From contig NZ_JACIET010000001.1 in assembly GCF_014197015.1 (NCBI RefSeq), forward strand, positions 248,001-312,000: a stretch of DNA of 64,000 nt, read 5' to 3'. The notes under the pieces are model-generated. The model was not told where the DNA came from. It saw only the letters and a program-made list of their open reading frames with translations, and did not search any database. Positions 14,564 through 26,716 of the stretch are shown piece after piece. The DNA comes from Niveibacterium umoris. Lineage in GTDB: Bacteria > Pseudomonadota > Gammaproteobacteria > Burkholderiales > Rhodocyclaceae. A program made the translations under genes and the position numbers. Within the stretch, counting starts at the first letter, position 1; every line of letters starts with the position of its first letter.

Positions 14564-14640
14564 GGCGGCATTAGCTCAGTCGGTAGAGCACTGGATTGTG
14601 ATTCCAGGTGTCACCGGTTCGATCCCGGTATGTCGCCCCA
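14564..14640 (+). tRNA. tRNA-His (GTG)
   Basis: This is a 77-nt tRNA. It has the extra G(-1) at 14564 paired with discriminator C, the identity element of histidine tRNA, and an encoded CCA. The anticodon loop TTGTGAT gives GTG at 14598-14600. The Pro-Arg-His order is common in proteobacteria. Confidence 0.97.
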
Positions 14641-15086: not shown

Positions 15087-15770
15087 ATGACGATTTCCCG
15101 CAAGCTGGTGATTGCCGCATTGAGCTGCTGTTTTGCCGTCACCGCAATGGCCGCTTCACAGAAGAAGCCGAATCTCAACAGCGCCAAAGCGGCTCCGACA
15201 CCAGCCACTGCCGCGGTCGACAAGATTGCGACGGCCCATGCGCTGGTGCGTTACGGCAATGCAAATGGCGATCCGCTTGCCTTGATCACCGCGGCCAAGA
15301 TCATCAAGGAGGCCGGCACTGTCGAGTCCCCCGCCAAGCGCACCGGCGGCAAGCCTGGCGCAGACAAGGGCCGGCCCGATGGCTATTCGCCCGACGTGAT
15401 CCTCGCGCATGCGCGGGAACTGGCTGCGGGCCGCCCGGACATCATTGCGCTGGCCGACGACGTGGCCAAGACCGGGTCGCGCGGGCGTGATCGTGGCCCG
15501 GGCCGTATCCATACCGTGGTCGGTTCCGGCGAAGTGGATTCGTTCGACGTTGTCTTCACCGGCGGCGAGCCCGCCAGAATCCTGGTGAGCGGTGATGGCG
15601 ACTCCGATCTCGATCTGTACGTCTACGACGAGAACGGCAACCTGATCTGCAAGGACGACGACAACTCCGATGACATGGTCTGCGGCTTCACCCCCGCGTG
15701 GACCGGCAAGTTCAACGTGCGCGTGCGCAATCGTGGCATCGCAAACGAATATGTCCTGATCACGAACTGA
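15087..15770 (+). CDS. exported protein with C-terminal PPC domain
   Basis: The protein has 227 residues, with a strong AGGAGAG site 7 nt before the ATG. Residues 1-22 form a signal peptide ending in AMA. The middle part (about 45-135) is a helical region with no recognised family. Residues 148-227 look like a bacterial pre-peptidase C-terminal (PPC) beta-sandwich: GEVDSFDVVFTGGE, the Asp-rich GDGDSDLDLYVYDENGN, and a closing FNVRVRNRG. PPC domains usually accompany secreted proteases and may bind calcium or polysaccharide. Here the PPC is separate from a protease, but the next gene encodes an exported caspase-fold protease. A terminator follows, so it may be transcribed at a higher level than the rest. 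Confidence 0.75.
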   Translation: MTISRKLVIAALSCCFAVTAMAASQKKPNLNSAKAAPTPATAAVDKIATAHALVRYGNANGDPLALITAAKIIKEAGTVESPAKRTGGKPGADKGRPDGYSPDVILAHARELAAGRPDIIALADDVAKTGSRGRDRGPGRIHTVVGSGEVDSFDVVFTGGEPARILVSGDGDSDLDLYVYDENGNLICKDDDNSDDMVCGFTPAWTGKFNVRVRNRGIANEYVLITN

Positions 15771-15781
15771 TTGCTACAGTC

Positions 15782-15812
15782 ACGCCTCCCGGTCACTGCC
15801 GGGGGGCGTTTT
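15782..15812 (+). terminator. intrinsic terminator between PPC gene and caspase gene
   Basis: ACGCCTCCCGG (15782-15792), a 6-nt loop and CCGGGGGGCGT (15799-15809) form an 11-bp stem with one G-T pair, ending in TTTT. It should uncouple the PPC-domain gene from the downstream protease and sigma factor genes. Confidence 0.8.
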
Positions 15813-15871
15813 CATTTCAGGGGCGCCCTGAACCGCCCGATCCAGATTTGCCGCGTATCCGGAGACTGTTC

Positions 15872-18022
15872 GTGAAACGCATTGCGTGCGTAATCCTGTT
15901 TGCCGTAGCTGCCCTGATGCTGCCCTTGAAGGCCTTGCACGCGCGCGAGATGCGGGCGCTGCTGGTGGGCGTGTCCGAGTATCCGGTGCTCGACAAGAAT
16001 TTCCAGCTCGAGGGCCCGCGCAACGACATCCAGCGCCTGCGCGATCTATTGCAGCAGCGCAGTTTCGCTGCGAACCACATGACCGTGCTGGCCGATGGTG
16101 TTCCCGGGGCCAGCGGCCTTCCTACCCGCGCGGCGATACTGAACGCGCTTGACCAACTGGCACTGCAGTCGGCCAAGGGCGACTATGTGCTGCTGTATTT
16201 CTCCGGGCACGGCAGTCAGCAACCGGCCGATCGCAACACGCCCGAAGGGCGCGACGAGGCCGACGGTCTGTTCGAAATCTTCCTGCCGCGCGACATCGGT
16301 GCCTGGAACGACGAAGGCCAGACGGTGCAGAACGCGCTGGTCAGCCACGAGTTGCGGCGCGCGGTAGACCGCATCATCGACAAGGGGGCCTTCGTCTGGG
16401 CGATCTTCGATTCCTGTCACAGCGCGACCATGGTTCGTGGCGCGGGCGACAGCAGCGAAGTGCGCTATCGCTACATCACGCCGGATGCGCTGGGCATTCC
16501 TGCGAAGGTAATCGACCGCGCGAATGCCGATGCAGTGCGCTCCCGCGGCAAGGCTGATGCGGCGTCCGCCGACCCGGTGGCGAGCACCAAAGGCATGGCC
16601 GGTGGCGTGTTCTTCTACGCCGCGCAGACGACCGAGCTTGCGCCTGAGATGCGACTGCCGCTCGGTCACCCGGACCGCAAGCCATTCGGCTTGTTTGGCT
16701 TCACACTGATGCAGGCGCTCGAATCCGGCGCGCCGATGACGTATCGCCAGCTGGCGCAACATGTGCTCAGCCAGTACGGCGGCATGAACCAGAGCCGCGT
16801 TACGCCCCTGTTTTCCGGTACCCGCCTCGATGACCTGTTGTTCGGTCAGGAAAGCGTGCCGATCCGCCAGTGGAAGGTCGACCGGGGTGCGACGCCGTCG
16901 ATCCCGGCCGGTGCGCTGGCGCAAGTGACCGAAGCGTCTCTGCTGGCGATCGTTGCCAGCCCGCTCGACAAGGACGACGCGGCGATAGGCTATGCCGAGG
17001 CGCGCAACGTCGCGCTGGCCTCGAGCACGCTGGTGCCGCTGGCGCACGGCGGCAAACCGGCGCTCGATCCGAAGGACATCCCCCCCGCCGCCCATGCCCG
17101 CCTGATCCGCAGCGCCGGCGAATACACCCTGCGGGTGGTCGCGGACTTCACCGATTGCGATAGCGCCTGCATCGCGCGCGGCCCGATCGACGCCTTGAAG
17201 AAATACGGCGTTCCTGGCGCACAAATCAACTGGTTTTCCTTGCCCGAGACCGGCGATGTTGCAGTCAAGGCCTACCGTGACCGCGTGCAGCTTGTCCCGC
17301 CCGCGCTGCAGGGTCTTAACTGCGCGGCACGCAAGAAGGCCGCCGAGCGCACGCAATGCGAAGAAGAACTGCGCACCGGCTCGCTCACGCTGCAGTGGAA
17401 CGCCGCCAAGGGCGCACCGGCCCTGCGCGAAGAGTTGGCCTCTGCGCTGCACAGCGTTGCGCGTGCCACCAACCTGATGCGCATCGCCAGCCAGTTGGGC
17501 GATGCCGCCGGCGGCAAGCTGGCCGTCACGATGAAACAGGTCACCGCGGCCGGCAAGACGCTGCCGATTACCGCAGAACGCAGCCCGGTGCTGCATGCGG
17601 GTGACAAGGTCGAGGTCAGCCTCGTTAACCAAGGCAACCTGCCACTCGATGTGACGGTTCTCTACCTCGATGCCGGCTATGGCGTGTCGGCACTGTTCCC
17701 GAGCAATGGCGAGAGCAACCGTTTCGAGGCCAAGGCCTCGCGTACTTTCACCCTCGACATTGATGACGAAACCACCGGGCTGGAGCGACTTGTAACGATT
17801 GCCGTGCAGGCGCGCGGGCTCGCCGAGCGCGTAGACTTTTCCTTCCTCGCACAGCCGCCGCTCGCGCAGGCGAACCGCACGCGCGGGGCAGAAGACGACG
17901 AGACGACGGCTTTCCGCGACGCAGGCTTCGCGGACTACGCCACGCGCGGTGCAAAGCTCACGCCGGCGACACCCGGGCAGCGCACCGCGATGCAGGTGTT
18001 CAACTGGACCGTGCGCAAGTAA
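15872..18022 (+). CDS. exported caspase-family (C14/metacaspase-like) protease
   Basis: I use GTG 15872 (716 residues), because GGAG lies 7 nt upstream and a signal peptide (VKRIACVILFAVAALMLPLKALHA) follows directly; the open frame further upstream has neither. Residues 27-250 form a caspase p20-like domain. His113 is in YFSGHGSQ and Cys182 in FDSCHSATM, the catalytic dyad, and GRDEADGLFEIFLP is metacaspase-like. The remaining ~450 residues carry no domain I recognise; a DUF4384-like beta region may lie at about 560-650 (KVEVSLVNQGNLPLDVTVLYL). Metacaspases cut after Arg or Lys. Location should be periplasmic or outside. It is 13 nt before an ECF sigma factor gene, suggesting a joint signalling role (inference). 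Confidence 0.88.
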   Translation: MKRIACVILFAVAALMLPLKALHAREMRALLVGVSEYPVLDKNFQLEGPRNDIQRLRDLLQQRSFAANHMTVLADGVPGASGLPTRAAILNALDQLALQSAKGDYVLLYFSGHGSQQPADRNTPEGRDEADGLFEIFLPRDIGAWNDEGQTVQNALVSHELRRAVDRIIDKGAFVWAIFDSCHSATMVRGAGDSSEVRYRYITPDALGIPAKVIDRANADAVRSRGKADAASADPVASTKGMAGGVFFYAAQTTELAPEMRLPLGHPDRKPFGLFGFTLMQALESGAPMTYRQLAQHVLSQYGGMNQSRVTPLFSGTRLDDLLFGQESVPIRQWKVDRGATPSIPAGALAQVTEASLLAIVASPLDKDDAAIGYAEARNVALASSTLVPLAHGGKPALDPKDIPPAAHARLIRSAGEYTLRVVADFTDCDSACIARGPIDALKKYGVPGAQINWFSLPETGDVAVKAYRDRVQLVPPALQGLNCAARKKAAERTQCEEELRTGSLTLQWNAAKGAPALREELASALHSVARATNLMRIASQLGDAAGGKLAVTMKQVTAAGKTLPITAERSPVLHAGDKVEVSLVNQGNLPLDVTVLYLDAGYGVSALFPSNGESNRFEAKASRTFTLDIDDETTGLERLVTIAVQARGLAERVDFSFLAQPPLAQANRTRGAEDDETTAFRDAGFADYATRGAKLTPATPGQRTAMQVFNWTVRK

Positions 18023-18035
18023 GGCCGACCGCGAT

Positions 18036-18632
18036 ATGGAAATCGCCGAACGCAACGCCCGCGACCAGCGCTGGCTTGACGACATCGCCGCCGGTGGCAA
18101 GGCGGGTGAACGCGGGGTGGCCGGGCTCTTCCGTGAGTACCGGCGACCGCTGCTGGCCTTCCTGATTCGCCACGGCGTGCAGGCGGATCTGGCGGAAGAT
18201 GCGCTGCAAGATGTCTTCGTGCGGGTTGTCAGGCACGCGGCCAGCTTCCGCGGCGACTCGGCCGTGTCGAGCTGGATCTATCAGATCGCGCGGAACCTTG
18301 CGGCGGACATCACCCGCGCGCCACGCCGCGAGGAACAGCTCGACGACGAAGGCTGGCAGCGGGTGTCCGACGCCACTGTGTGCGACAGCGACAGCAGCGA
18401 TCAGCAAGCGCTCGATGACTGCGTGCAGGGCGGCTTTGCGGCGTTCGGCAGGGCCCACCCCGAGCGCGCCGAGGCGCTGCGCCGCGCCGCGCTCGATGGC
18501 TGGAGCGTGCGCGATGTGGCAGCTTTCCTTGATCGCACCGAGGCAGCCACGCGCGAGTACCTGTCGCAATGCCGCAAGCGCCTGCGCGAATTCCTGCTGC
18601 CATGTCGCGAGTTGATCGCGGAGGATGAGTGA
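18036..18632 (+). CDS. ECF-type RNA polymerase sigma factor
   Basis: The protein has 198 residues from ATG 18036; an in-frame extension into the caspase gene is rejected. Region 2 is clear at about residues 25-90: FREYRRPLLAFLIRHGVQ, DLAEDALQDVFVRVVRH, SSWIYQIARNLAAD. Region 4 is at about 140-190 (DGWSVRDVAAFLDRTEAATREYLSQCRKRLREFL), somewhat divergent from the consensus helix-turn-helix. It should direct RNA polymerase to a small regulon, possibly this locus. It lies between the caspase gene and a one-pass membrane protein whose ATG overlaps its stop, the position of an anti-sigma factor. Confidence 0.88.
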   Translation: MEIAERNARDQRWLDDIAAGGKAGERGVAGLFREYRRPLLAFLIRHGVQADLAEDALQDVFVRVVRHAASFRGDSAVSSWIYQIARNLAADITRAPRREEQLDDEGWQRVSDATVCDSDSSDQQALDDCVQGGFAAFGRAHPERAEALRRAALDGWSVRDVAAFLDRTEAATREYLSQCRKRLREFLLPCRELIAEDE

Positions 18633-19201
18633 TGGCCGAGCGCCCTGAGCAGATCGACAGCTGGCTGGCAGAGGTCGCCGGGCAGCAGCCTGGCCGCAGC
18701 AATCGCAGCGAAACGCAGGCCTTGCGGCGAGCGATCCTTGCCGAGGCGGCGGCGGATCAAGCCGGCGATGCCGCCGACGAAGCGCGCGCGCTCGAGCGCC
18801 TGCAATTTCGCCTGCGGCGCGAGCGCCTCTTGCCGCGCAACGCGCTACCGACCTGGTCTTACGCCGTGGCGGCGACGCTGGCAGCGGTGGCGATCGGCCT
18901 GGTGGTGATGCGGCAGGCGCCGCCACCTGCGCCGGAGGTCGTGGCTTACGCCGAACCGCCGATCTGGCGTGGCGCCTTTGTGCGTCTTGATGTGCATACC
19001 CCCACACCGCGCGCCGCGGCCGAGCGTCTCGTCAGTGCCCTGCGCAAGGAAGGCGTCGCCGCAGACATCTACGCGTCCGGCAATGTGTTCAGTGTCGACT
19101 GCGAACTCGTCGCGCCACTGTCGCCCGGCGTGACGCAAGCCTTCTCCGCGCTCGCTCTGGAAGCCACGCCCGGCCGTGTCCGCATCGAATTCAAACCGTG
19201 A
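18632..19201 (+). CDS. one-pass membrane protein, candidate anti-sigma factor
   Basis: The protein has 189 residues. ATG 18632 overlaps the sigma factor stop by one base and GGAGG lies 7 nt upstream. A charged cytoplasmic part (residues 1-72, rich in Glu, Ala and Arg) precedes one membrane segment (WSYAVAATLAAVAIGLVVM, about 73-91) and a periplasmic domain of ~95 residues. Topology and position fit an anti-sigma factor. No HxxxCxxC zinc motif and no known anti-sigma domain are visible, so function is inferred from context only. The periplasmic part would be within reach of the exported proteases of the locus. Confidence 0.6.
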   Translation: MAERPEQIDSWLAEVAGQQPGRSNRSETQALRRAILAEAAADQAGDAADEARALERLQFRLRRERLLPRNALPTWSYAVAATLAAVAIGLVVMRQAPPPAPEVVAYAEPPIWRGAFVRLDVHTPTPRAAAERLVSALRKEGVAADIYASGNVFSVDCELVAPLSPGVTQAFSALALEATPGRVRIEFKP

Positions 19202-19250
19202 GGCGGCGACCCTTCCGCTGCAGTCGCCCGATCAGCCTGATGGAGTGTGC

Positions 19251-19892
19251 ATGTTCAAAGTGTCCCTGACCCTCACTGCGTTGCTGCTGTGTCTTGCAGC
19301 CCGCGCCGACGTGCTGCCACCGCAGGCGCCCGATGTCGCGCAGCGCTATCGCAACAATCCTGGCGCTTTCGACCGCACCGATGCCTGGTGCGAAGGGCTC
19401 CGTGTCGGTGCGGCCTGCCTGATTCCCGGCACCCCCTTCGAGGGCGGTGGCAGCGGTACCTGCGAGCGCGAGGTGCACAGGCGCGACTTCCAGATCGATC
19501 TGCTGTGCACCCGCAAACCCGCGCCCCGCATCGAACGCGGCTTGCCGGAAGGGCCGTGGCGGGCCGACGAGCAATTGTGCGAGGTGGCCGCACGCAATGC
19601 CGAGATGGCACAGACCCTGCAGTCGCATGGCTGGCTGTGTGCCGAACCGCCGCTTGCCGCCGACCGCTTCTGCAAAGGGCTGGAAGCAGGCAAGCCTTGC
19701 ACCGCCGAAGTTTCGATAGGCGCCGACACGCGCCGCTTCGACGGCGTGTGCGCCGTGCAGCGCGCCGAGATGGGGGCCTATTTTCAGGGCCGTCGCACAC
19801 TGACACGGCCGGTCATCACCTGCGAGCCGGAACGACCAGCACCCGCGCTCACGCTCAAACCGGTCAGTGCCTGGCGCAAGCTGTTCCAGTAG
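19251..19892 (+). CDS. exported Cys-rich protein with duplicated module
   Basis: The protein has 213 residues with GGAG 5 nt before the ATG. Residues 1-19 form a signal peptide ending in ARA. The mature part holds two related modules. One begins WCEGLRVGAACLIPG and ends DLLC; the other begins FCKGLEAGKPCTAEV and ends VITC. Both follow C-x-GL-x2-G-x2-C, then a beta region with one further Cys, then a closing Cys, so four Cys per module probably form disulfides. A further Cys pair (QLCEV, WLCAE) lies between them. I recognise no family. It is cotranscribed with the sigma factor group (49-nt gap). Confidence 0.7.
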   Translation: MFKVSLTLTALLLCLAARADVLPPQAPDVAQRYRNNPGAFDRTDAWCEGLRVGAACLIPGTPFEGGGSGTCEREVHRRDFQIDLLCTRKPAPRIERGLPEGPWRADEQLCEVAARNAEMAQTLQSHGWLCAEPPLAADRFCKGLEAGKPCTAEVSIGADTRRFDGVCAVQRAEMGAYFQGRRTLTRPVITCEPERPAPALTLKPVSAWRKLFQ

Positions 19893-19895
19893 ACG

Positions 19896-20225
19896 ATGTT
19901 GTCGCAGGGCGTCGCGCTGGGCGTCACGCTGCTGATCGAAGCACCCATCGTCTGGTTCGCGAGCGCCCGGTCGCGGCGTGGGCCTGCGTGGCGCGCCGCC
20001 GCCGCGCTGTTGCCAAGTTGCGTCACGCATCCGTTCGCCTGGCAGGCAATCGGCCACTTTGGCGCACACGACTATCTGGTCGGCCTGGTGCTGATCGAGG
20101 CCCTGGTGGTGCTCGCCGAAGCGGTGATGGTGGCGGTACTGGCCGGGCTGACGCCGCGCGTTGCCTTGTTGATGTCACTTGCCGCCAACCTTGCTTCCGC
20201 CCTGTTGGGCGGCCTGCTGGCATGA
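19896..20225 (+). CDS. small polytopic membrane protein, unknown
   Basis: The protein has 109 residues, starting 3 nt after the stop of the Cys-rich protein gene. About three hydrophobic segments are visible (near residues 3-22, 59-82 and 88-108). A His-rich connection, THPFAWQAIGHFGAHDY, lies between the first and second. No family is recognised. Its stop overlaps the next start (ATGA), so the two membrane proteins are likely translated together and may form one complex (inference). Confidence 0.6.
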   Translation: MLSQGVALGVTLLIEAPIVWFASARSRRGPAWRAAAALLPSCVTHPFAWQAIGHFGAHDYLVGLVLIEALVVLAEAVMVAVLAGLTPRVALLMSLAANLASALLGGLLA

Positions 20226-21151
20226 GGCGCGTCCGCGAATCCGCCTGGATCGCGTTGGCCGCGGTGCTGGGGCTACTCGCGCTGTGGCAGCCGCAAGGGC
20301 TCTACCTCTTCGCGCTTGCGCTATTCGGGCTGCCTCATGTGCTGTGGGAACTTGCCTGGGTACGGCAGGTCTGGGGCGCAGCGCTGCCACGTATGCTGTG
20401 GATGCCCTTGCTGGGCGTGCTCACGATGCAGGCGCTGGCGAGATTCGGCCTCTGGTCGGGGCGGCTTGACGCAGCCACGGCCGCGGCCTGCGATGCGGCC
20501 AGTCTGGCCGTGTGTCTGTTCGTTACCGTGTTCATGACGCCGCGCCTGCCGCGTCCGCGGCGCTACGCCTTCGTTGCGGTGGGCCTTGCCGTGCCAGCAG
20601 GCTTGATCGCCGTGGCCGATACGCCCTACGTGGTGGGTGTGCTCGCGGCGCTGGCGATCGCCCACAACTTCACGCCGCTCGGCCTGATGCCCTCGGATGC
20701 CCGCATCGGGCGCTGGCCGGCACGTCCGCTGCTCGGTGTCATGTTCCTTGCGCCGCTGCTGTGCTGCGGGCTCCTGTGGGGGGCGCATTCAGGCGTCGCG
20801 ACAGGATCGACTCCGCCATCGGAGATCGGCTGGCTGCAGGGCCGCTCGACACAGCTCGCTGCGGCGGCGCTGCCCGCGCTGGTGTGGGCACAGTGTCTGC
20901 ACTATCTGTCCGTGCTGTATCTGATGCCGCGCGCGATCGGGCCGGCGTGGCGCGGCTTGCCGATGCGGCCCCTCGCGCTGCTGCTGTGCGCCGGCCTTAG
21001 CCTGTATTTCTTCACCGACTACAAGTCGGCGCGCGGGCTCTATGCCGTGGCGGCCGGCGTGCATGCGTGGCTGGAGTGGCCGCTGATCCTGTTGGGCGTG
21101 GCGGGCCTGCCGCTGCACGCGCCTGACGATTCAGTCGTCGCGACGTCGTAG
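20222..21151 (+). CDS. polytopic membrane protein with conserved-looking His residues
   Basis: The protein has 309 residues. The start overlaps the previous stop; a longer open frame upstream is a shadow. Eight or nine hydrophobic segments fill the protein. Histidines sit at segment ends: FGLPHVLWE, AIAHNFTPLG, CLHYLSVLY and VHAWLEWPL. This spacing recalls di-iron or haem membrane enzymes such as Brp/Blh carotene oxygenases (which have a GxPHG motif), but the rest does not match well enough to assign that family. Neighbours are exported proteins and proteases, so a role in the envelope is likely. Function unknown. Confidence 0.6.
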   Translation: MRRVRESAWIALAAVLGLLALWQPQGLYLFALALFGLPHVLWELAWVRQVWGAALPRMLWMPLLGVLTMQALARFGLWSGRLDAATAAACDAASLAVCLFVTVFMTPRLPRPRRYAFVAVGLAVPAGLIAVADTPYVVGVLAALAIAHNFTPLGLMPSDARIGRWPARPLLGVMFLAPLLCCGLLWGAHSGVATGSTPPSEIGWLQGRSTQLAAAALPALVWAQCLHYLSVLYLMPRAIGPAWRGLPMRPLALLLCAGLSLYFFTDYKSARGLYAVAAGVHAWLEWPLILLGVAGLPLHAPDDSVVATS

Positions 21152-21196
21152 TGCAAGGGCCGCGCGTCGTCGGTCCGACGCATACAGGAGGCGCTT

Positions 21197-21505
21197 GTGG
21201 AGGGACTGTTCGTTCGGGTGACGTTGGGGCTGTGTGTCGCGGGCACGCAGGCCGCGGCGCAAGTGCACGCGGCTCCGCAAGCACCCGCGCCGGTGGGTGC
21301 CGCGCGAGCGGTGAATGGCGAGCCTGTGGCGAACACGTCTGCGAAACGCTGGGATCTGCGTATGCCGCGCCTGGATTCGCTACAGTTCCTGAGCGGGCTG
21401 GATGCTGCCCTCAAGCCTCTGCGAACGCTTCCGCTCGGGTCTTGCGGCCTGGTGATGCAGCACGACGGGCAGTCGAAACCTGCGTCGCCAAGCCCGACAC
21501 CGTGA
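21197..21505 (+). CDS. small exported protein, unknown
   Basis: The protein has 102 residues, beginning with GTG 21197 and supported by a near-perfect AGGAGG (21186-21191) 5 nt upstream. A signal peptide spans about residues 1-25 (VTLGLCVAGTQAAAQVHA). The mature part is Ala- and Pro-rich, then has a short amphipathic stretch (RMPRLDSLQFLSGLDAALKPL) and one Cys. No family is recognised. It lies 45 nt after the membrane protein gene and before an OmpA-like gene. Confidence 0.55.
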   Translation: MEGLFVRVTLGLCVAGTQAAAQVHAAPQAPAPVGAARAVNGEPVANTSAKRWDLRMPRLDSLQFLSGLDAALKPLRTLPLGSCGLVMQHDGQSKPASPSPTP

Positions 21506-21549
21506 CGGACCTGCCCCCATCCACAGATTCGGAATCGAACTTGAAGAAC

Positions 21550-22182
21550 ATGACGCGCGGCGTTCGATCAGTCTCCTTGCTCCTGTGCCTGGCCTCCGCG
21601 AGTGCGTCGGCCAGCGATGCCGCTGATGCCGCCGCGCGCAAGGCTCGCGACGACGCGCGCGCGGTGGTGTCAGGTGCCGAGGCTGCCACGGGCCCGGAGC
21701 AGTCGGCTGACGATGCGCGTCGCGCTGCGGCGATGGCAGCCGAACAGGCGCGTGCGCGACAGGCCGCGGCAGCGGCCGGGCATCCGGACGAATCGCCGCA
21801 TGCGTTGAGCCTTGTGCTCGAATCGGCGTTTCCGGCCGACGCGAACCAGTTGTCGGCGGATGCCATGCGGCGTCTCGATGAACTCGCTGCGTTGGTGCTG
21901 GCGCACACCTTGCTGTCGCCGATACGCGTAGAAGGCCACGCCAACGAGCCGGGCACCGATGAATATCGGCTTGCGATCGCGGCGCACCGGGCCGATCTCG
22001 TGCGCGATTACCTCGTGGCGCGCGGGGTGCCGGCGGGGCAGATCGAAACCATCGGTTCGACCGAGCGGACCGGGCCGCTGTCGGCTGCTTGCGATTCCGG
22101 TGGCAAACGGCAGCGGGCGAGCGACTGCGCGGACCCCGGTTCGCCCGTGATCACTTCGTTCAAACTTCTGCATGCACAGTGA
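21550..22182 (+). CDS. OmpA-like peptidoglycan-binding protein
   Basis: The protein has 210 residues from ATG 21550; TTG 21541, three codons upstream, is an alternative. The signal peptide spans residues 1-22. Residues 23-85 form an Ala/Arg-rich helical, probably coiled-coil, segment. The OmpA C-terminal domain is at about 90-205: a beta start at HALSLVLESAFPADANQLS, then IRVEGHANEPGTDEYRLAIAAHRADLVRDYL, matching the GHTD-x2-G...R pattern with Asn in place of the usual Thr-Asp, then GVPAGQIETIGSTER. Such domains bind peptidoglycan in the periplasm. Its stop overlaps the TPR-CHAT start by one base, so the two are translationally coupled. Confidence 0.82.
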   Translation: MTRGVRSVSLLLCLASASASASDAADAAARKARDDARAVVSGAEAATGPEQSADDARRAAAMAAEQARARQAAAAAGHPDESPHALSLVLESAFPADANQLSADAMRRLDELAALVLAHTLLSPIRVEGHANEPGTDEYRLAIAAHRADLVRDYLVARGVPAGQIETIGSTERTGPLSAACDSGGKRQRASDCADPGSPVITSFKLLHAQ

Positions 22183-25067
22183 TGCGCAGCCCGCCTTGTT
22201 CGCTTGGTTTGCGCGTCATTGCCTGGGTACTGGCGACGGGCGCTGTCACAGGAGTGGCATTCGCCGACACGGAGTGCGCCAAGGTGGAGGCCGCAGCGGC
22301 AGCGGGCCGCGGGGGCATGCTCGCGCTCTACGACAAGGGTTGCTACGACGCCGCGCTGCAGCGCGCGAACGCGCTGATCGAGGCTGCCGGTAGCGGCGAC
22401 GCCCGCACGCGCGCGGTGCTGCTCAACGACGCCGCCGCGATCAGCGAAAAGCTCGGCCGCTATGCCGAGGCGAACGAGTTCTATGCGCAGGCTGTTGGCC
22501 TGTTGCGCAGCGGCCCGGATGCGGCATTGGGCGGCACGCTTGCCGGCAATCGCGCGGTGCTGCTGTACCGTGTCGGCGCGTACGACGAAGCGCTGAAGAG
22601 CTACACCGAAGCGATCGCGATCCTCGAAACGGCGTCGGGTGCCGATCCGTCTGCCTTGAGTGCGGCGGTGGGCGGGCTCGGTCTGGTCGAGCAGACGCTC
22701 GGTCGCTACCAGGACGCGGCGATCCATCTCAAGCGCGCGCTCGAACTGGACGAGAAGCTGCGCGGCAAGGTGCATGCCGATGTGGCGACCGATCTCTCGA
22801 ACCTTGGCGACCTGTATCGCGCGCTGGGCGATTTCGACCATGCGCTGCCGACCTATCGGCGCGCCTACGAGATCCGCCGCAAGGTATTGCCACCCGATCA
22901 TGCCGACACGACCAACAGCCTCAGCAAGCTGGCCTATGCACACGAAAACCTCGGGCAGAACGAGGTGGCGCTCAAGCTCTACGAGGAGGCGCTTGCGATG
23001 CGCCAGCGCGTGCTGCCCGCCGGCCACCCCTTCATTGCCAGCGCACAGAGCAGCATCGGCGACATCTTGCGGCGCGGCGGGCAATTCGACGCGGCCCGAC
23101 CGTGGTACGACCAGGCGCTGGCGATCCGCCGCGCGGCACTGCCGCCGGGGCATGCCGACATCGCCGATACCCTGCACAACCTGGGCTGGCTGCTGCAGTT
23201 GAAAGGGGACTTCGCAGCCGCCGAGGCGCACTTCCGCGAGGCGCTCGCGATCCGCGAACAGGCGCTGGGTGCTGGCCACGCGCGCACGGCCGACACGATG
23301 GCGCGACTGGCAAGCGTCGTTGCCGCGCGTGGCGACTCGACGCAGGCCCTGGCGCTGTCGCTGCGTGCATTCGCGATCGCGCGCGCAGCCGGCGTGCCGC
23401 AGGTTGAATTCGAGTCCGGCGTGTTGCTCGCGACGCGCTATCACGCGGCAGGTCGCCCCGAGCAAGCGGTTTTCGTTGGCAAACAGGCGATCAATGCGAT
23501 GCAGCGCATCCGCGGGCAATCGCGCACGCTCGATCCGGCACTGCAGCGCAGTCTGATGCAGGAAAACGGCGGGGCCTATCGCGAACTGGCGAGCTGGCTG
23601 GTCGACCTTGGGCGGCTCGCGGAAGCCGAACAGGTGCTGACCATGCTCAAGGAGGTCGAGCTTGCCGATCTCGTGCAACGTTCCGATGTCCAGCGCACAC
23701 AGGCGGAATTCGTTGGCGCGGAAAAGTCCGCGGCGCAGCAGGGCGATGCGCTGGTGGCCACTGGCGTGGCCGAGGCGAGCGAACTGGCGGCGCTGCAACG
23801 ACGCCAGCGGGCCGGCGAGAAGCTCGACGAGGCGGCGCAACAGCGGCTGCAGGCGCTCAAACAGCGCCAGCTGCAATGGCAGATCGATTTCGAGAAATGG
23901 GTGTCCGCGCTGAAGTTCGTCAGCGATGCTACGGAACTGCGTGCCGAGGTGCTGCACCGGGGCAGCGATCTGCAGACGCTGGTGCGGCCGGATCCCGGTG
24001 CGGTGGGCGTGTCCTACGTGGTGGGCGAACAGCGACTGGCGATAGTTGTGTCGACCGGGCGCGGCAGCTTCGGGCGTGAGGTGGCGATCGGGCGTGTCGA
24101 ACTCAATCGCCGGGTCGCGGCACTGCGGCAGGCGATCGAAGCGCGCGCCGACGTCTTGCCGGCAGCGCAGGCCTTGCATCAGGTGCTGGTCGCGCCGATC
24201 GCAGCGGACCTTGCAGCGGCCAAGGCCACCACGCTGGTGCTGGCGCTGACCGAATCGCTACGCTATCTGCCGTTCGCTGCCCTGCACGACGGCAAGCAGT
24301 TTCTGGTCGAACGCTACGCGCTGGTGCATTGGCTGCAGGCGGGCGGAACGCCGTCCGGTGGGCCTGCGGGCGAGTGGCAGGTCGCCGGGCTCGGCGCCGC
24401 GCGCGGGGCGTCCGGCTTCAAGCCTTTGCCGGCGGTGCCGGGTGAATTGGGGCGCATCGTGCGCGACGCCAGGCATCCGGACGGCACCCTTCCAGGCGAG
24501 GTGCTGCTCGATGGCGAATTCGATCGTGGCGGGCTGGAGGATGCCTTATCCGGCCGCTTCAACGTGGTGCACATCGCCAGCCATTTCGATTTCCGACCGG
24601 GCGACGCGGAACGTTCGGTGCTGCTGCTCGGCGATGGCAACACCCTGAGCCTGCGGGAACTGGCCGCACTCGACTATCTCAACGTGCAGTTGCTGACGCT
24701 GTCCGCCTGCAACACCGCCAGCGGCGGCGGCACAAACGAGAACGGCGCGGAAGTGGAAGGGCTCGCCGCCGCAGTGCGGCGCCAGGGCGCCCGCAGCGTG
24801 CTGGCGAGCCTGTGGCCTGTTGCCGATGCCAGTACTGCGGCGCTGATGCAGCGTTTCTATTCGGCGCGCGCGGAGGGCCGCGGGAACGCGCTGCGCACGG
24901 CACAACTGGCGATCTTGCAAGGCGCCGCTGTCGCCGCAGACGAGAGCGAGCGCGGCGCCAAGCTGGCGGGCGGTGGCACCATGAAGGCAGTCGGGATCGA
25001 TCCGGCACGCCCCTGGGCGCATCCCTACTTCTGGGCGCCCTTCGTACTGAGCGGAGACTGGAGATGA
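22182..25067 (+). CDS. exported TPR-CHAT protease
   Basis: The protein has 961 residues. ATG 22182 overlaps the ompA-like stop and is followed by a signal peptide (ending GVAFA, about residue 28). Residues 50-440 contain about nine tetratricopeptide repeats, several of the kinesin-light-chain type (repeated ALP-x-GH and LxxLxxxYxxxGxxxxA patterns). A helical linker rich in Gln and Arg spans about 520-570. Residues 640-961 form a CHAT domain, a caspase-superfamily protease: His801 in HIASHFDF and Cys843 in LSACNTA are the expected dyad, followed by VEGLAAAVRRQGARSVLASLW. TPR-CHAT proteins cut specific partners when activated; the CRISPR-linked one cuts Csx30. No CRISPR genes are nearby. The target here is unknown. 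Confidence 0.88.
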   Translation: MRSPPCSLGLRVIAWVLATGAVTGVAFADTECAKVEAAAAAGRGGMLALYDKGCYDAALQRANALIEAAGSGDARTRAVLLNDAAAISEKLGRYAEANEFYAQAVGLLRSGPDAALGGTLAGNRAVLLYRVGAYDEALKSYTEAIAILETASGADPSALSAAVGGLGLVEQTLGRYQDAAIHLKRALELDEKLRGKVHADVATDLSNLGDLYRALGDFDHALPTYRRAYEIRRKVLPPDHADTTNSLSKLAYAHENLGQNEVALKLYEEALAMRQRVLPAGHPFIASAQSSIGDILRRGGQFDAARPWYDQALAIRRAALPPGHADIADTLHNLGWLLQLKGDFAAAEAHFREALAIREQALGAGHARTADTMARLASVVAARGDSTQALALSLRAFAIARAAGVPQVEFESGVLLATRYHAAGRPEQAVFVGKQAINAMQRIRGQSRTLDPALQRSLMQENGGAYRELASWLVDLGRLAEAEQVLTMLKEVELADLVQRSDVQRTQAEFVGAEKSAAQQGDALVATGVAEASELAALQRRQRAGEKLDEAAQQRLQALKQRQLQWQIDFEKWVSALKFVSDATELRAEVLHRGSDLQTLVRPDPGAVGVSYVVGEQRLAIVVSTGRGSFGREVAIGRVELNRRVAALRQAIEARADVLPAAQALHQVLVAPIAADLAAAKATTLVLALTESLRYLPFAALHDGKQFLVERYALVHWLQAGGTPSGGPAGEWQVAGLGAARGASGFKPLPAVPGELGRIVRDARHPDGTLPGEVLLDGEFDRGGLEDALSGRFNVVHIASHFDFRPGDAERSVLLLGDGNTLSLRELAALDYLNVQLLTLSACNTASGGGTNENGAEVEGLAAAVRRQGARSVLASLWPVADASTAALMQRFYSARAEGRGNALRTAQLAILQGAAVAADESERGAKLAGGGTMKAVGIDPARPWAHPYFWAPFVLSGDWR

Positions 25068-25777
25068 TGGCTGCAACTTCCTGGCGAAAGGCTCGTGCGG
25101 CGCTGATTGGCGTGTTGGCATTGCAGACCCTGCCGATCTGCGCTGTGGTGCGTGCGGAGTCGCCCGCCGTGTCGCTGGTCGAGGCGCCGGGGCAGTGGAA
25201 GTCCGGGCCTTGGACATTGATCGAGCGCGACGCGTCAGACGGCTGGGTGACGCTGCGCTGCGAGGGCCCTCCGGAATGCAACGAGGCGCTGCTGGCGGCC
25301 GCGGCACGCTGGCCTGAGGCGCAGCAGCGCCTGGAGCAGGGGGCGCTGTCGGTGCGCGCCGACTATTGGCGACGAGAGGTGTTTCCGTATTTCGGCGCCT
25401 TCCGTGCAGTCGAACCCACCGCGGATCTGGCTTTGCCTTCGAGGATCTGGCTCGACGACCGGTATGCGGGACTCCGTTGCAGCTGGCGCGACGCCGCCGG
25501 TGCACACACTGCGGACTTGTCTGGCGGCGATCGCGCGCGCTATTCCGGCCCCGACTCGGCCTCAAGCGAAATGGTGCTGATATCGGCGAAGGCGTGTTCC
25601 CGCTGCCGCGCACACTATCTGCACCTGCAATTGAAGGGCAGCGGAGAAGGTGCTGCGCCGGCACTGTTCCTCAACTGGAGCGGGGTGGAGTTCCTGCCGA
25701 TCGAAGGCGCGCTGATGCAAGGGTTTGCATCACTGGGGGGGAAGGCTCCGGTAAGAATGCGCTGCACGGGCCGCTGA
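25064..25777 (+). CDS. exported protein of unknown function, last gene of the locus
   Basis: The protein has 237 residues from ATG 25064, which overlaps the TPR-CHAT stop (ATGA). The signal peptide spans residues 1-31 (IGVLALQTLPICAVVRA). The mature protein is Trp-rich and beta-rich (SGPWTLIERDASDGWVTLRC) with Cys pairs, including an ACSRC motif near residue 180. No family is recognised. Translational coupling to TPR-CHAT makes it the natural candidate for a substrate, inhibitor or cofactor of that protease (inference). Confidence 0.6.
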   Translation: MMAATSWRKARAALIGVLALQTLPICAVVRAESPAVSLVEAPGQWKSGPWTLIERDASDGWVTLRCEGPPECNEALLAAAARWPEAQQRLEQGALSVRADYWRREVFPYFGAFRAVEPTADLALPSRIWLDDRYAGLRCSWRDAAGAHTADLSGGDRARYSGPDSASSEMVLISAKACSRCRAHYLHLQLKGSGEGAAPALFLNWSGVEFLPIEGALMQGFASLGGKAPVRMRCTGR

Positions 25778-25864: not shown

Positions 25865-26578
25865 TCAGGTGCGCTGTGTGCGTCGCCGGGCCAGTGCCAG
25901 CACGCCAAGACCTGCCAGCATCATTGCCGTCGTTCCGGGTTCTGGCACTGCGGCGACTTCGGCGCCGGTCAGAGCGTGGTCATACACCGCGATGTAATCG
26001 ACCTTGCCGCGTGAGGCTTCGCCCTGACCGGTCGCGAAATCGTCGATGAAGAAATTGACTGTCCGGTTTGGCGTGCTGAACACGAAGATGTTGCTGCTGT
26101 CCGTGTAGGTCGCACGCAGCGCGCCATTGACGTAGCCGTTGACGACCTGGGTCGTCGCGTCGCGCGTCAGCGTCACGCGCAAGGTCTTGTCGGCGATGAA
26201 ATCATTGGCCGGGCCATTGATCTGGGTGCTGCAATCGCAGATCTGCAGCGCGGAGTTGAAGTTGTAGAGCCCTGCGTCACTTGTGAGCCCCTTGAAGTCG
26301 AGCACTTTGCGCCAGCTGCTGGTGGCGCCGAAGCTGAACGACAGATCCAGCGTGTAGTTGCCGGCCGGCAGTGCGCCGTCCAGGCTCAGGCCTTGATTGG
26401 CTTCAAAGCTGTAGCTGGTGGCGCCGAGTACGCCGCCGTGGGCTACCAGACTCGGGCCGCCGAAGGCATCGGCCAGGCTGCCGTCGAGCTGATACAAGTG
26501 GGTCGGGTCGGCAGAGGCGATTGGCGCGGCAAGGGAAACCAAGGTCGCGCAGACCAGCAAGCGCAAGTGATGATGCAT
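25865..26578 (-). CDS. PEP-CTERM sorting domain protein with LamG-like fold
   Basis: The protein has 237 residues from ATG 26578, with GGAG about 8 nt upstream; the longer frame lacks support. The signal peptide spans residues 1-23 (LVSLAAPIASA). Residues 25-200 look like a concanavalin/LamG-type beta sandwich (THLYQLDGSLADAFGGPSLV, GKVDYIAVYDHALTGAEV). The C-terminus is a full PEP-CTERM tripartite signal: VPEPGTTAMM, a hydrophobic helix, RRRTQRT. Exosortase would process it at the membrane and export it to the surface or matrix. Such proteins go with exopolysaccharide-producing betaproteobacteria; no exosortase gene is in the window. Confidence 0.88.
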   Translation of the reverse strand: MHHHLRLLVCATLVSLAAPIASADPTHLYQLDGSLADAFGGPSLVAHGGVLGATSYSFEANQGLSLDGALPAGNYTLDLSFSFGATSSWRKVLDFKGLTSDAGLYNFNSALQICDCSTQINGPANDFIADKTLRVTLTRDATTQVVNGYVNGALRATYTDSSNIFVFSTPNRTVNFFIDDFATGQGEASRGKVDYIAVYDHALTGAEVAAVPEPGTTAMMLAGLGVLALARRRTQRT

Positions 26579-26716
26579 GGGTCTTCTCCGGAGTGGGTAG
26601 GGGAGCCCCGGCATCATAGCAAGGTGCTTGCATATGTCATATTGCAGGTTGCCGCGTGTAGCCGGATTTCTCTGCGTTGCCACAGCGCACATCGTGCCCG
26701 CAAGGGTGACGCAGTG

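Follow-up and report, generated by a model that had tools for sequence, protein, structure and literature searches.

A recurrent locus of an extracytoplasmic function sigma factor, a candidate membrane anti-sigma factor and putatively exported caspase-superfamily proteases in Niveibacterium umoris

Comparison with described sigma factor and protease systems

Genes for caspase-superfamily proteases have been found beside sigma factor genes in several described systems, and here we compare these with an 11-gene locus (g1-g11) of Niveibacterium umoris that encodes an extracytoplasmic function (ECF) sigma factor, a one-pass membrane protein and two putatively exported proteases, a C14 caspase homologue and a TPR-CHAT protease. 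The locus lies at positions 15087-25777 of the window, the 64,000-nt stretch of the 4.8 Mb source genome that was analysed. To our knowledge, the roles of exported bacterial caspase homologues are largely unknown. We tentatively propose, at somewhat less than an even chance, that the core of this locus is an envelope-signalling switch in which an exported C14 or TPR-CHAT protease would cut the membrane protein g4 at site 1 and RseP would then release the sigma factor.

The descriptions of earlier systems given below follow the available portions of the cited papers. The type III-E CASP/Craspase system comprises the TPR-CHAT protease Csx29, Csx30 and CASP-sigma, and the cleavage site of Csx30 maps to a C-terminal-domain loop, between residues 427 and 429 (PMC10028731). 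Metacaspase operons with sigma-70 factors were reported in 2012 from Myxococcus, Anaeromyxobacter, Haliangium, Sorangium, Ralstonia and Fibrobacter, and OmpA was present in 14 metacaspase operons (PMC3501461). Genes of CHAT-domain and other proteases lie near ECF54 factors, for which proteolytic control has been proposed (PMC8999054), and EACC2-caspase genes with an ECF factor and a DUF1822 TPR protein were described in 2021 (PMC8195603).

The locus is similar to Craspase in that a TPR-CHAT protease, an inhibitor (here a candidate) and an ECF-type sigma factor are encoded together, and in that proteolysis of the inhibitor is proposed to free the sigma factor. As far as the available text on Craspase goes, the present locus differs in that no CRISPR-type (clustered regularly interspaced short palindromic repeats) gene is among those named here, the proteases are putatively exported, the candidate for the inhibitor is predicted to be membrane-bound and a second protease, C14, belongs to the core. 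With the 2012 operons it shares a caspase homologue and a sigma factor in one predicted operon, g2 and g3 being co-directional and separated by 13 nt; however, the available part of that paper describes no anti-sigma factor, CHAT partner or cleavage motif (PMC3501461). ECF54 factors likewise stand beside CHAT-domain protease genes, whereas the loci described here conserve a dedicated membrane partner, a difference drawn from the accessible part of PMC8999054. The EACC2 systems, as far as PMC8195603 was available, also combine a caspase gene, an ECF factor and a TPR protein; in contrast, Pfam finds no DUF1822 match in the window locus, and the EACC1-associated caspase model NF047832 gives 39.7 bits on g2 against a cut-off of 140, EACC2 models being outside the search. 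The resemblance to RseA/DegS/RseP lies in an ECF sigma factor encoded beside a protein that is predicted to cross the membrane once, between cytoplasmic helices and an outer domain, in a genome that also encodes RseP. Here, however, the linked site-1 candidates are clan-CD cysteine proteases (C14, CHAT) rather than DegS or a signal peptidase, and for g4 no match to a known anti-sigma family exceeds the cut-off.

An earlier sequence-only reading of this DNA knew of no described system with such a gene set. This was too broad, as metacaspase-sigma operons, ECF54-CHAT neighbourhoods and EACC2-caspase-ECF systems are already in print (PMC3501461, PMC8999054, PMC8195603). What stands is narrower: the available portions of PMC8195603, PMC8999054, PMC8103513, PMC10028731, PMC3501461 and PMC6426788 contain no dedicated membrane anti-sigma partner, joint C14/CHAT core or invariant Arg, while the group tables of the ECF reclassification (gkaa1229) may already list the neighbourhood. 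What appears to be new here is the invariant Arg in the predicted periplasmic linker of g4, the basic residue in the g1 linker and the proposal of an exported caspase-like site-1 protease.

The same reading had seen in the locus a CRISPR-free envelope version of the Csx29/Csx30 system. Its unit of sigma factor, membrane partner and protease in a CRISPR-free setting is retained: the source genome has no cas1 match, and no CRISPR family was found in the 11 genes (Pfam for all 11; NCBIfam and PADLOC for all but g8), with Cas7-11 and Csx30 models not searched genome-wide. For a specific tie to Csx29 and Csx30 no support was obtained. A CHAT profile finds no Csx29 chain in the PDB at E<=10 (5 matches listed), which leaves kinship with Csx29 unsupported by sequence and is no proof of a different fold. 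A phmmer search with full-length g10 gave 90 matches, and the 60 shown were all TPR or TPR-like proteins, which likewise does not point to a different fold.

Core genes of the locus

The features on which the proposal is built are the following:

g1, 15087-15770, plus strand: putatively exported protein with a helical domain and a PPC-type beta domain; Arg132-Gly133 in the interdomain linker
g2, 15872-18022, plus strand, GTG start: C14 caspase homologue with a leader (by eye) and His113/Cys182
g3, 18036-18632, plus strand: ECF sigma factor with a C-terminal Cys190
g4, 18632-19201, plus strand: one-pass anti-sigma-like protein with cytoplasmic helices, a membrane helix at about 74-95, a linker with Arg113 and an outer domain (117-188)
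Arg113 codon of g4, 18968-18970, plus strand: predicted site-1 cleavage position, coordinates counted from the g4 start
g10, 22182-25067, plus strand: TPR-CHAT protease with a leader (by eye) and His801/Cys843

All 11 genes in 15087-25777 are on the plus strand, and the coordinates of the open reading frames (ORFs) agree with the co-directional run with 1-4 nt overlaps that had been read from the sequence. Such overlaps are present between g3 and g4 (the g4 start overlaps the g3 stop by 1 nt), g6 and g7, g9 and g10, g10 and g11, and also g8 and g9 if g9 starts at 21502. Leaders were recognized by eye on g1, g2, g5, g8, g9, g10 and g11. The two caspase-superfamily proteases with His/Cys dyads were likewise confirmed by Pfam, g2 matching Peptidase_C14 (E=2e-16, 60.7 bits against a cut-off of 21.4) and g10 matching CHAT (E=3e-56, 191.5 bits against 24) and TPR_12 (277.7 bits), with the dyads kept among homologues. 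For g3, the matches are Sigma70_r2 of Pfam (E=1e-13, 51 bits against 24) and TIGR02937 (51.9 against 42.9); its region 4 match is under the cut-off, and TIGR02989, the Rhodopirellula/Verrucomicrobium type, scores 61.5 against 124.55. The PPC match of g1 (Pfam, E=8e-5, 23.8 bits) is just under the cut-off of 25.9.

The candidate anti-sigma factor g4 and its invariant arginine

Homologues of g4 were found paired with a sigma gene in 14 loci and are divergent, with a mean pairwise identity of 25.6%. Despite this divergence, three columns are invariant in the 14 aligned sequences, namely Met1, Arg32 and Arg113, of which Met1 is simply the start as set by script. Arg113 (14/14) is the single invariant column among 96 periplasmic ones and is located in a variable juxtamembrane linker, where no other position exceeds 9/14. 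The residue that follows it is Gly in nine sequences, Ser in two, Asp in two and Ala in one, and 7-22 residues (counted by eye) separate it from the hydrophobic 19-residue window. A default MAFFT alignment of 12 of the 14 sequences again has Arg113 invariant. One locus met afterwards (L187; L and G numbers are our labels for loci and genomes) reads VRSG at this site by eye and provides one out-of-sample case.

The best 19-residue hydropathy of the 14 sequences ranges from 1.42 to 2.69 and is above 1.6 in 13 of them. AlphaFold2 modelling with seven g4 sequences (mean predicted local distance difference test, pLDDT, 71.9; predicted template modelling score 0.39) gives cytoplasmic helices, a helix from 74 to 95 that covers the hydrophobic stretch and, beyond a linker, a compact outer domain. 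The outer domain is built in the order beta-alpha-beta-beta-alpha-beta and is modelled with a block pLDDT of about 90 (89-93) from residue 121 on; linker residues 108-113 have pLDDT values below 50. The one-pass candidate anti-sigma factor named in the sequence-only reading was thus recovered as a topology, with one modelled membrane helix and a folded outer domain. We regard g4 as a candidate membrane anti-sigma factor.

The fold of the outer domain gave no close relative. Foldseek found none at E<=0.001, and the best VIA-align scores (Z 6.5, a glyoxalase-family and a designed protein) are under the notable level of that tool. A SPOR domain was considered for the outer part and rejected, as no SPOR entry occurred among the matches shown and these were generic. 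In Pfam, g4 has no match at E<=5, the six other members searched give scattered matches at chance level, and one of the seven matches ABATE at E=0.0036.

Recurrence of the sigma/g4 pair with C14 and CHAT proteases

The pair of sigma factor and g4 was located at 15 loci in 14 genomes of beta-, gamma- and zetaproteobacteria. A C14 gene, a CHAT gene or both are adjacent in 12 of the 15 (the window, L029, L036, L042, L033, L038, L040, L041, L134, L135, L136 and L138). At L121, C14 is 4.4 kb away behind an opposite-strand gene; at L187, a TPR gene is interrupted by the contig end ahead of any CHAT part; and at L137, the contig ends 0.3 kb after g4, and the 2.7 kb ahead of the sigma gene contain neither C14 nor CHAT. 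The contig of L134 begins inside the pair and its sigma gene is therefore not seen. Loci found via C14 contain C14 by construction, and L033 was also met via C14. Among the seven met via the g4 profile alone (L121, L134-L138, L187), four have C14 or CHAT adjacent, one has C14 at 4.4 kb and two are cut. The sequence-only reading proposed as a check the co-occurrence of C14, CHAT, ECF sigma factor and g4 in other Rhodocyclales genomes; a unit of sigma factor, g4 and putatively exported clan-CD proteases does recur beyond the genus.

These loci were collected in two ways. A pattern scan of genome contigs with the C14 alignment (84,980 species according to its description) provided the best 80 of 81 relatives; sigma and g4 homologues adjoin C14 in five of the 80 scan loci (L036, an uncultured Uliginosibacterium record, L038, L040, L041 and L042), and CHAT lies within about 4.5 kb in eight. 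The g4 profile at E<=0.001 matched 5/369 sampled genomes of the class, 8/399 of the order and 3/398 of the phylum, counts that include the own genome and weak hits. A wider g4 profile at E<=1e-5, searched around three hits, matched 4/158 genomes at family, 1/78 at class and 1/54 at order level, of which G1264 alone was new. The locus counts leave out four weak hits (G206, G174, G812 and G997; E 3e-5 to 8e-4).

The gene order varies among distant members. In Mariprofundus (L040, a zetaproteobacterium), three genes of the g1 N-domain, sigma, g4, C14, a small membrane protein and TPR-CHAT follow in a row, and L136 holds the same parts rearranged as two g1-like genes, CHAT, C14, sigma and g4. L135 and L138 have CHAT without C14. 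The core consists of the ECF sigma factor, one-pass g4, a putatively exported C14 and/or TPR-CHAT protease and often g1. As a control, no homologue of C14, CHAT, g1 or g4 was found within 8 kb at any of 10 other sigma-70-family loci of the source genome, and the neighbourhoods of the other two C14 genes of this genome (10 and 12 kb) are likewise free of sigma, CHAT and g4 homologues.

Within the genus, the locus is present in three of seven genomes (the source genome, G001 and G006) with all 11 genes in the same order, and the other four have no full-length C14 match. Identities across these copies are 72-73% for C14, 78-79% for sigma, 58-60% for g4 and 80-81% for CHAT, and the conserved gene order exceeds chance. 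The unit lies on one side of the cytochrome-c maturation cluster in the source genome and on the other side in G001 and G006 (gene names by eye), which argues that it moved as a block. Together, these observations establish the locus as a real, conserved, rare and patchy module.

Conserved features of the sigma factor, the proteases and g1

Of the 13 module members in a tree of 23 sigma factors, 12 group in one branch with a support of 100/100; L187 was found later and is outside this tree. A C-terminal Cys, Cys190 in the window, is present in 12/12 of the branch, mostly in the context FLxPC, and in 0/10 other sigma factors. Cys129, located before region 4, is present in 13/13 module sigma factors and also in 3/10 others. 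A redox or metal role is possible for the Cys residues of the branch.

The dyad of g2 (His113/Cys182) is invariant in 85/85 aligned C14 sequences, which comprise the window, L029, the 80 scan loci, L136, L165 and L033, and that of g10 (His801/Cys843) in 8/8 CHAT sequences. A rule for hydrophobic leaders is passed by 64 of the 85 C14 sequences; of the 21 that fail, 19 have a leader by eye, many starting with a twin-Arg-like TRR, and two (L039 and L113) have none. The model of g10 contains helical repeats, while its CHAT part is mostly poor (block pLDDT 25-69 from about residue 720 on). Separases, which are relatives of CHAT, cut after Arg. Orthocaspases are described, in the available text, as cleaving after positively charged residues (PMC6426788). 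We take g2 as a C14 caspase homologue of probable orthocaspase type, for which cleavage after Arg or Lys is predicted.

A g1 homologue lies directly upstream of C14 in 16 of the 80 scan loci, 15 of them alphaproteobacterial and the other L036. At the interdomain junction of g1 (position 132), 36/36 sequences have a basic residue (20 Lys, 16 Arg), followed by Gly in 32; as several sequences come from one locus, the 36 are not independent cases.

Proposed mechanism and alternative explanations

In the mechanism that we propose, g3, the ECF sigma factor, would be kept at the inner membrane by g4. On a signal in the periplasm, a putatively exported clan-CD protease (g2 of the C14 type, g10 of the TPR-CHAT type, or both) would become active and cut g4 just outside the membrane after Arg113 (site 1). 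RseP, which the source genome encodes (TIGR00054, 341.9 bits, cut-off 147.55), would then cut g4 inside the membrane (site 2), and the freed sigma factor would transcribe its targets. CHAT may substitute for C14 where the latter is missing, and g1, with its conserved basic interdomain residue, could serve the same protease as a further substrate or as a decoy, or act as its sensor. Cleavage is proposed at Arg113 since orthocaspases prefer basic residues and this Arg, placed in a flexible linker, is the sole invariant outer residue. The gene order, its conservation, the dyads, Arg113 and the presence of RseP are observations, and the topology comes from hydropathy, the model and reading by eye; from these we infer that g4 may inhibit g3, that either protease may cut g4 and at which bond, and that a signal and a regulon would exist. 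The fuller version seems to us more doubtful: a CRISPR-independent signalling system whose dedicated site-1 protease, cutting after one invariant Arg, is an exported caspase homologue that TPR-CHAT could replace or control, with g1 as a second substrate bearing a similar basic residue.

If true, signalling at the envelope that turns on genes would be a native function of proteases with the caspase fold, a counterpart to Csx29-Csx30 of CRISPR systems and to DegS-RseA of the envelope stress response. With the invariant Arg there is one residue to mutate and one peptide bond to examine, so the question is directly testable. The central idea of the sequence-only reading, a proteolytic switch, is plausible and now has a prediction at the level of a single residue.

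Several observations weigh against the proposed switch. Cleavage of g4 by g2 or g10 is itself a prediction, and Arg113 might be structural or ligand-binding. No anti-sigma family matches g4 above cut-off (the best NCBIfam match is CnrY/NccY at E=0.029), and its cytoplasmic part is modelled with a block pLDDT of only 53-71. The sigma factor of L033 falls outside the sigma branch. In the C14 tree the sigma-linked sequences do not form one branch and imply five changes, at least three of them forced by the starred branches, so the tree does not show that the sigma pair was acquired just once. The TPR-CHAT protein of L135 (8836-11905) is split into two ORFs of 545 and 467 aa in different frames, and the neighbourhoods of the weak hits G206, G812 and G997 contain no C14 or CHAT, with a sigma gene in two of these three. 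Most C14 genes, 75 of the 80 scan loci, stand without the sigma pair, which implies a sigma-independent role of C14 in alphaproteobacteria.

This last observation also fits an alternative that we consider rather unlikely, in which the proteases are outputs: an ordinary site-1 protease of DegS/HtrA or trypsin type would free the sigma factor, and its regulon would include C14 and TPR-CHAT, which would remodel the envelope or clean it of damaged proteins. ECF factors commonly control linked genes, and possible site-1 proteases of this kind do occur: L138 has a trypsin-like gene next to the pair (Pfam) and L038 an HtrA-like one nearby (by eye); L090 and L108 further have trypsin-like genes near C14 or CHAT without sigma. 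On its own, the alternative does not account for a lone invariant Arg that lies in a variable linker and agrees with the orthocaspase preference, although a trypsin-like enzyme would accept Arg as well. Nor was a common promoter form seen, one ECF-type pattern matching 6/21 upstream regions without common spacing; this weighs against the proposed switch too. It is less likely, in our estimate, that Arg113, like the basic residue of g1, has a structural role and that shared envelope ecology or transfer keeps the genes together with no direct proteolytic signalling. In favour of this, Arg113 precedes the first strand of the modelled outer domain by four residues, and the unit travels as a block whose place in the neighbourhood differs among species of the genus. 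Yet the rest of the linker shows no comparable conservation, unrelated lineages (L040, L136) carry these genes in a different arrangement, and the association was absent from all 10 control sigma loci.

A conflict or cell-death system appears improbable; here infection or damage would cause the caspase-like proteases to kill or incapacitate their own cell or an adjacent one, and the sigma pair would set the time at which they are expressed. Such a system would agree with the PADLOC matches of g2 (caspase model, E=1e-19) and g10 (BovA, weak, E=2e-5) and with the patchy distribution seen across the class, order and phylum samples and within the genus. However, the PADLOC matches are confined to the catalytic domains, both proteases appear to be exported and hence away from phage replication, and no toxin or nuclease family is found among the locus genes with Pfam matches. 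A viral origin was also rejected, one viral-contig scan with g2 having returned no relative.

Genus-limited genes and surroundings of the locus

The remaining features of the locus are listed below, where genus-limited means found only in the genus among the loci searched.

Terminator-like hairpin in the g1-g2 gap, 15782-15809, plus strand: 12-pair stem with a T-rich tail
g5, 19251-19892, plus strand: Cys-rich protein with a leader (by eye); genus-limited
g6, 19896-20225, plus strand: small membrane protein; genus-limited
g7, 20222-21151, plus strand: polytopic membrane protein (by eye); genus-limited
g8, 21197-21505, plus strand: small protein, exported by eye; genus-limited
g9, 21502 or 21550 to 22182, plus strand: OmpA-like peptidoglycan anchor, in such a setting genus-limited
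g11, 25064-25777, plus strand: protein with a leader (by eye) and no recognised family; genus-limited

The gene set of the sequence-only reading therefore holds in part: the sigma factor, its membrane partner and the proteases recur, whereas the OmpA-like g9 (Pfam OmpA, E=4e-14), g5-g8 and g11 occur in the genus only among the loci examined and are outside the conserved core. No Pfam match was obtained for g4-g8 at E<=0.1, nor for g5-g8 and g11 at E<=1 with the exception of DUF1269 on g7 (E=0.23), and no family is above cut-off for g4, g5-g8 and g11 (Pfam; NCBIfam for all but g8). In G001, one open frame extends through g10 and g11 (L029:16279-19901; L030). A fusion was rejected, since the end of g10 is read in another frame, which points to a frameshift near the CHAT end or a sequence error. 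The split TPR-CHAT of L135 could be a broken gene, a two-part protein or a sequence error.

The hairpin scan overall gave 7 terminator-like sites against 8.0 in shuffles, and what stands out is the strength of the 15782-15809 stem alone. Because this strong hairpin follows g1, g1 may be transcribed apart from g2-g11. Standard sigma-70 promoters numbered 0 against 0.7 in shuffles. About 2 kb before the window (C1:245893-246099 of the source genome) lies a gene with sigma-70 region 2 that is classical rpoE-like by eye, and an ordinary sigma-E factor is thus probably also encoded in this genome. Downstream of the locus, at 25865-26692 on the minus strand, an exported protein has a PEP-CTERM-like C-terminus (by eye). 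A tRNA-His gene is present at 14565-14640 of the window, and a 72-bp piece of its end recurs in G001 at 1315861 (100%) and 1363710 (96%). The region C1:1282827-1363781 of G001 looks like two tandem islands of about 33 and 48 kb at tRNA-His, with the protease locus of G001 outside it.

Further arrangements were seen at related loci. At L138, two TPR-CHAT genes, with ORFs of 907 and 1613 aa, and a trypsin-like gene flank the sigma pair, and at L121 a CHASE2-domain gene (E=2e-14) follows the pair, with a large, weakly C14-matching gene on the opposite strand. L050, L054-L056 and other Mesorhizobium loci encode C14 with a leader, in many cases twin-Arg-like, and no sigma pair; many of the Mesorhizobium C14 loci have a second C14-domain ORF about 1 kb downstream. 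Among plasmid records, 7 have a match to the sigma factor, in no case over more than 80% of its length, and C14 relatives are present on 57 records, 46 of them from Pseudosulfitobacter. Such plasmid-borne relatives include L170 (a Pseudosulfitobacter plasmid), where two caspase-family genes stand with trypsin-like, patatin and two-component genes, and L169 (Azospirillum brasilense p3), where two CHAT genes lie upstream on the opposite strand.

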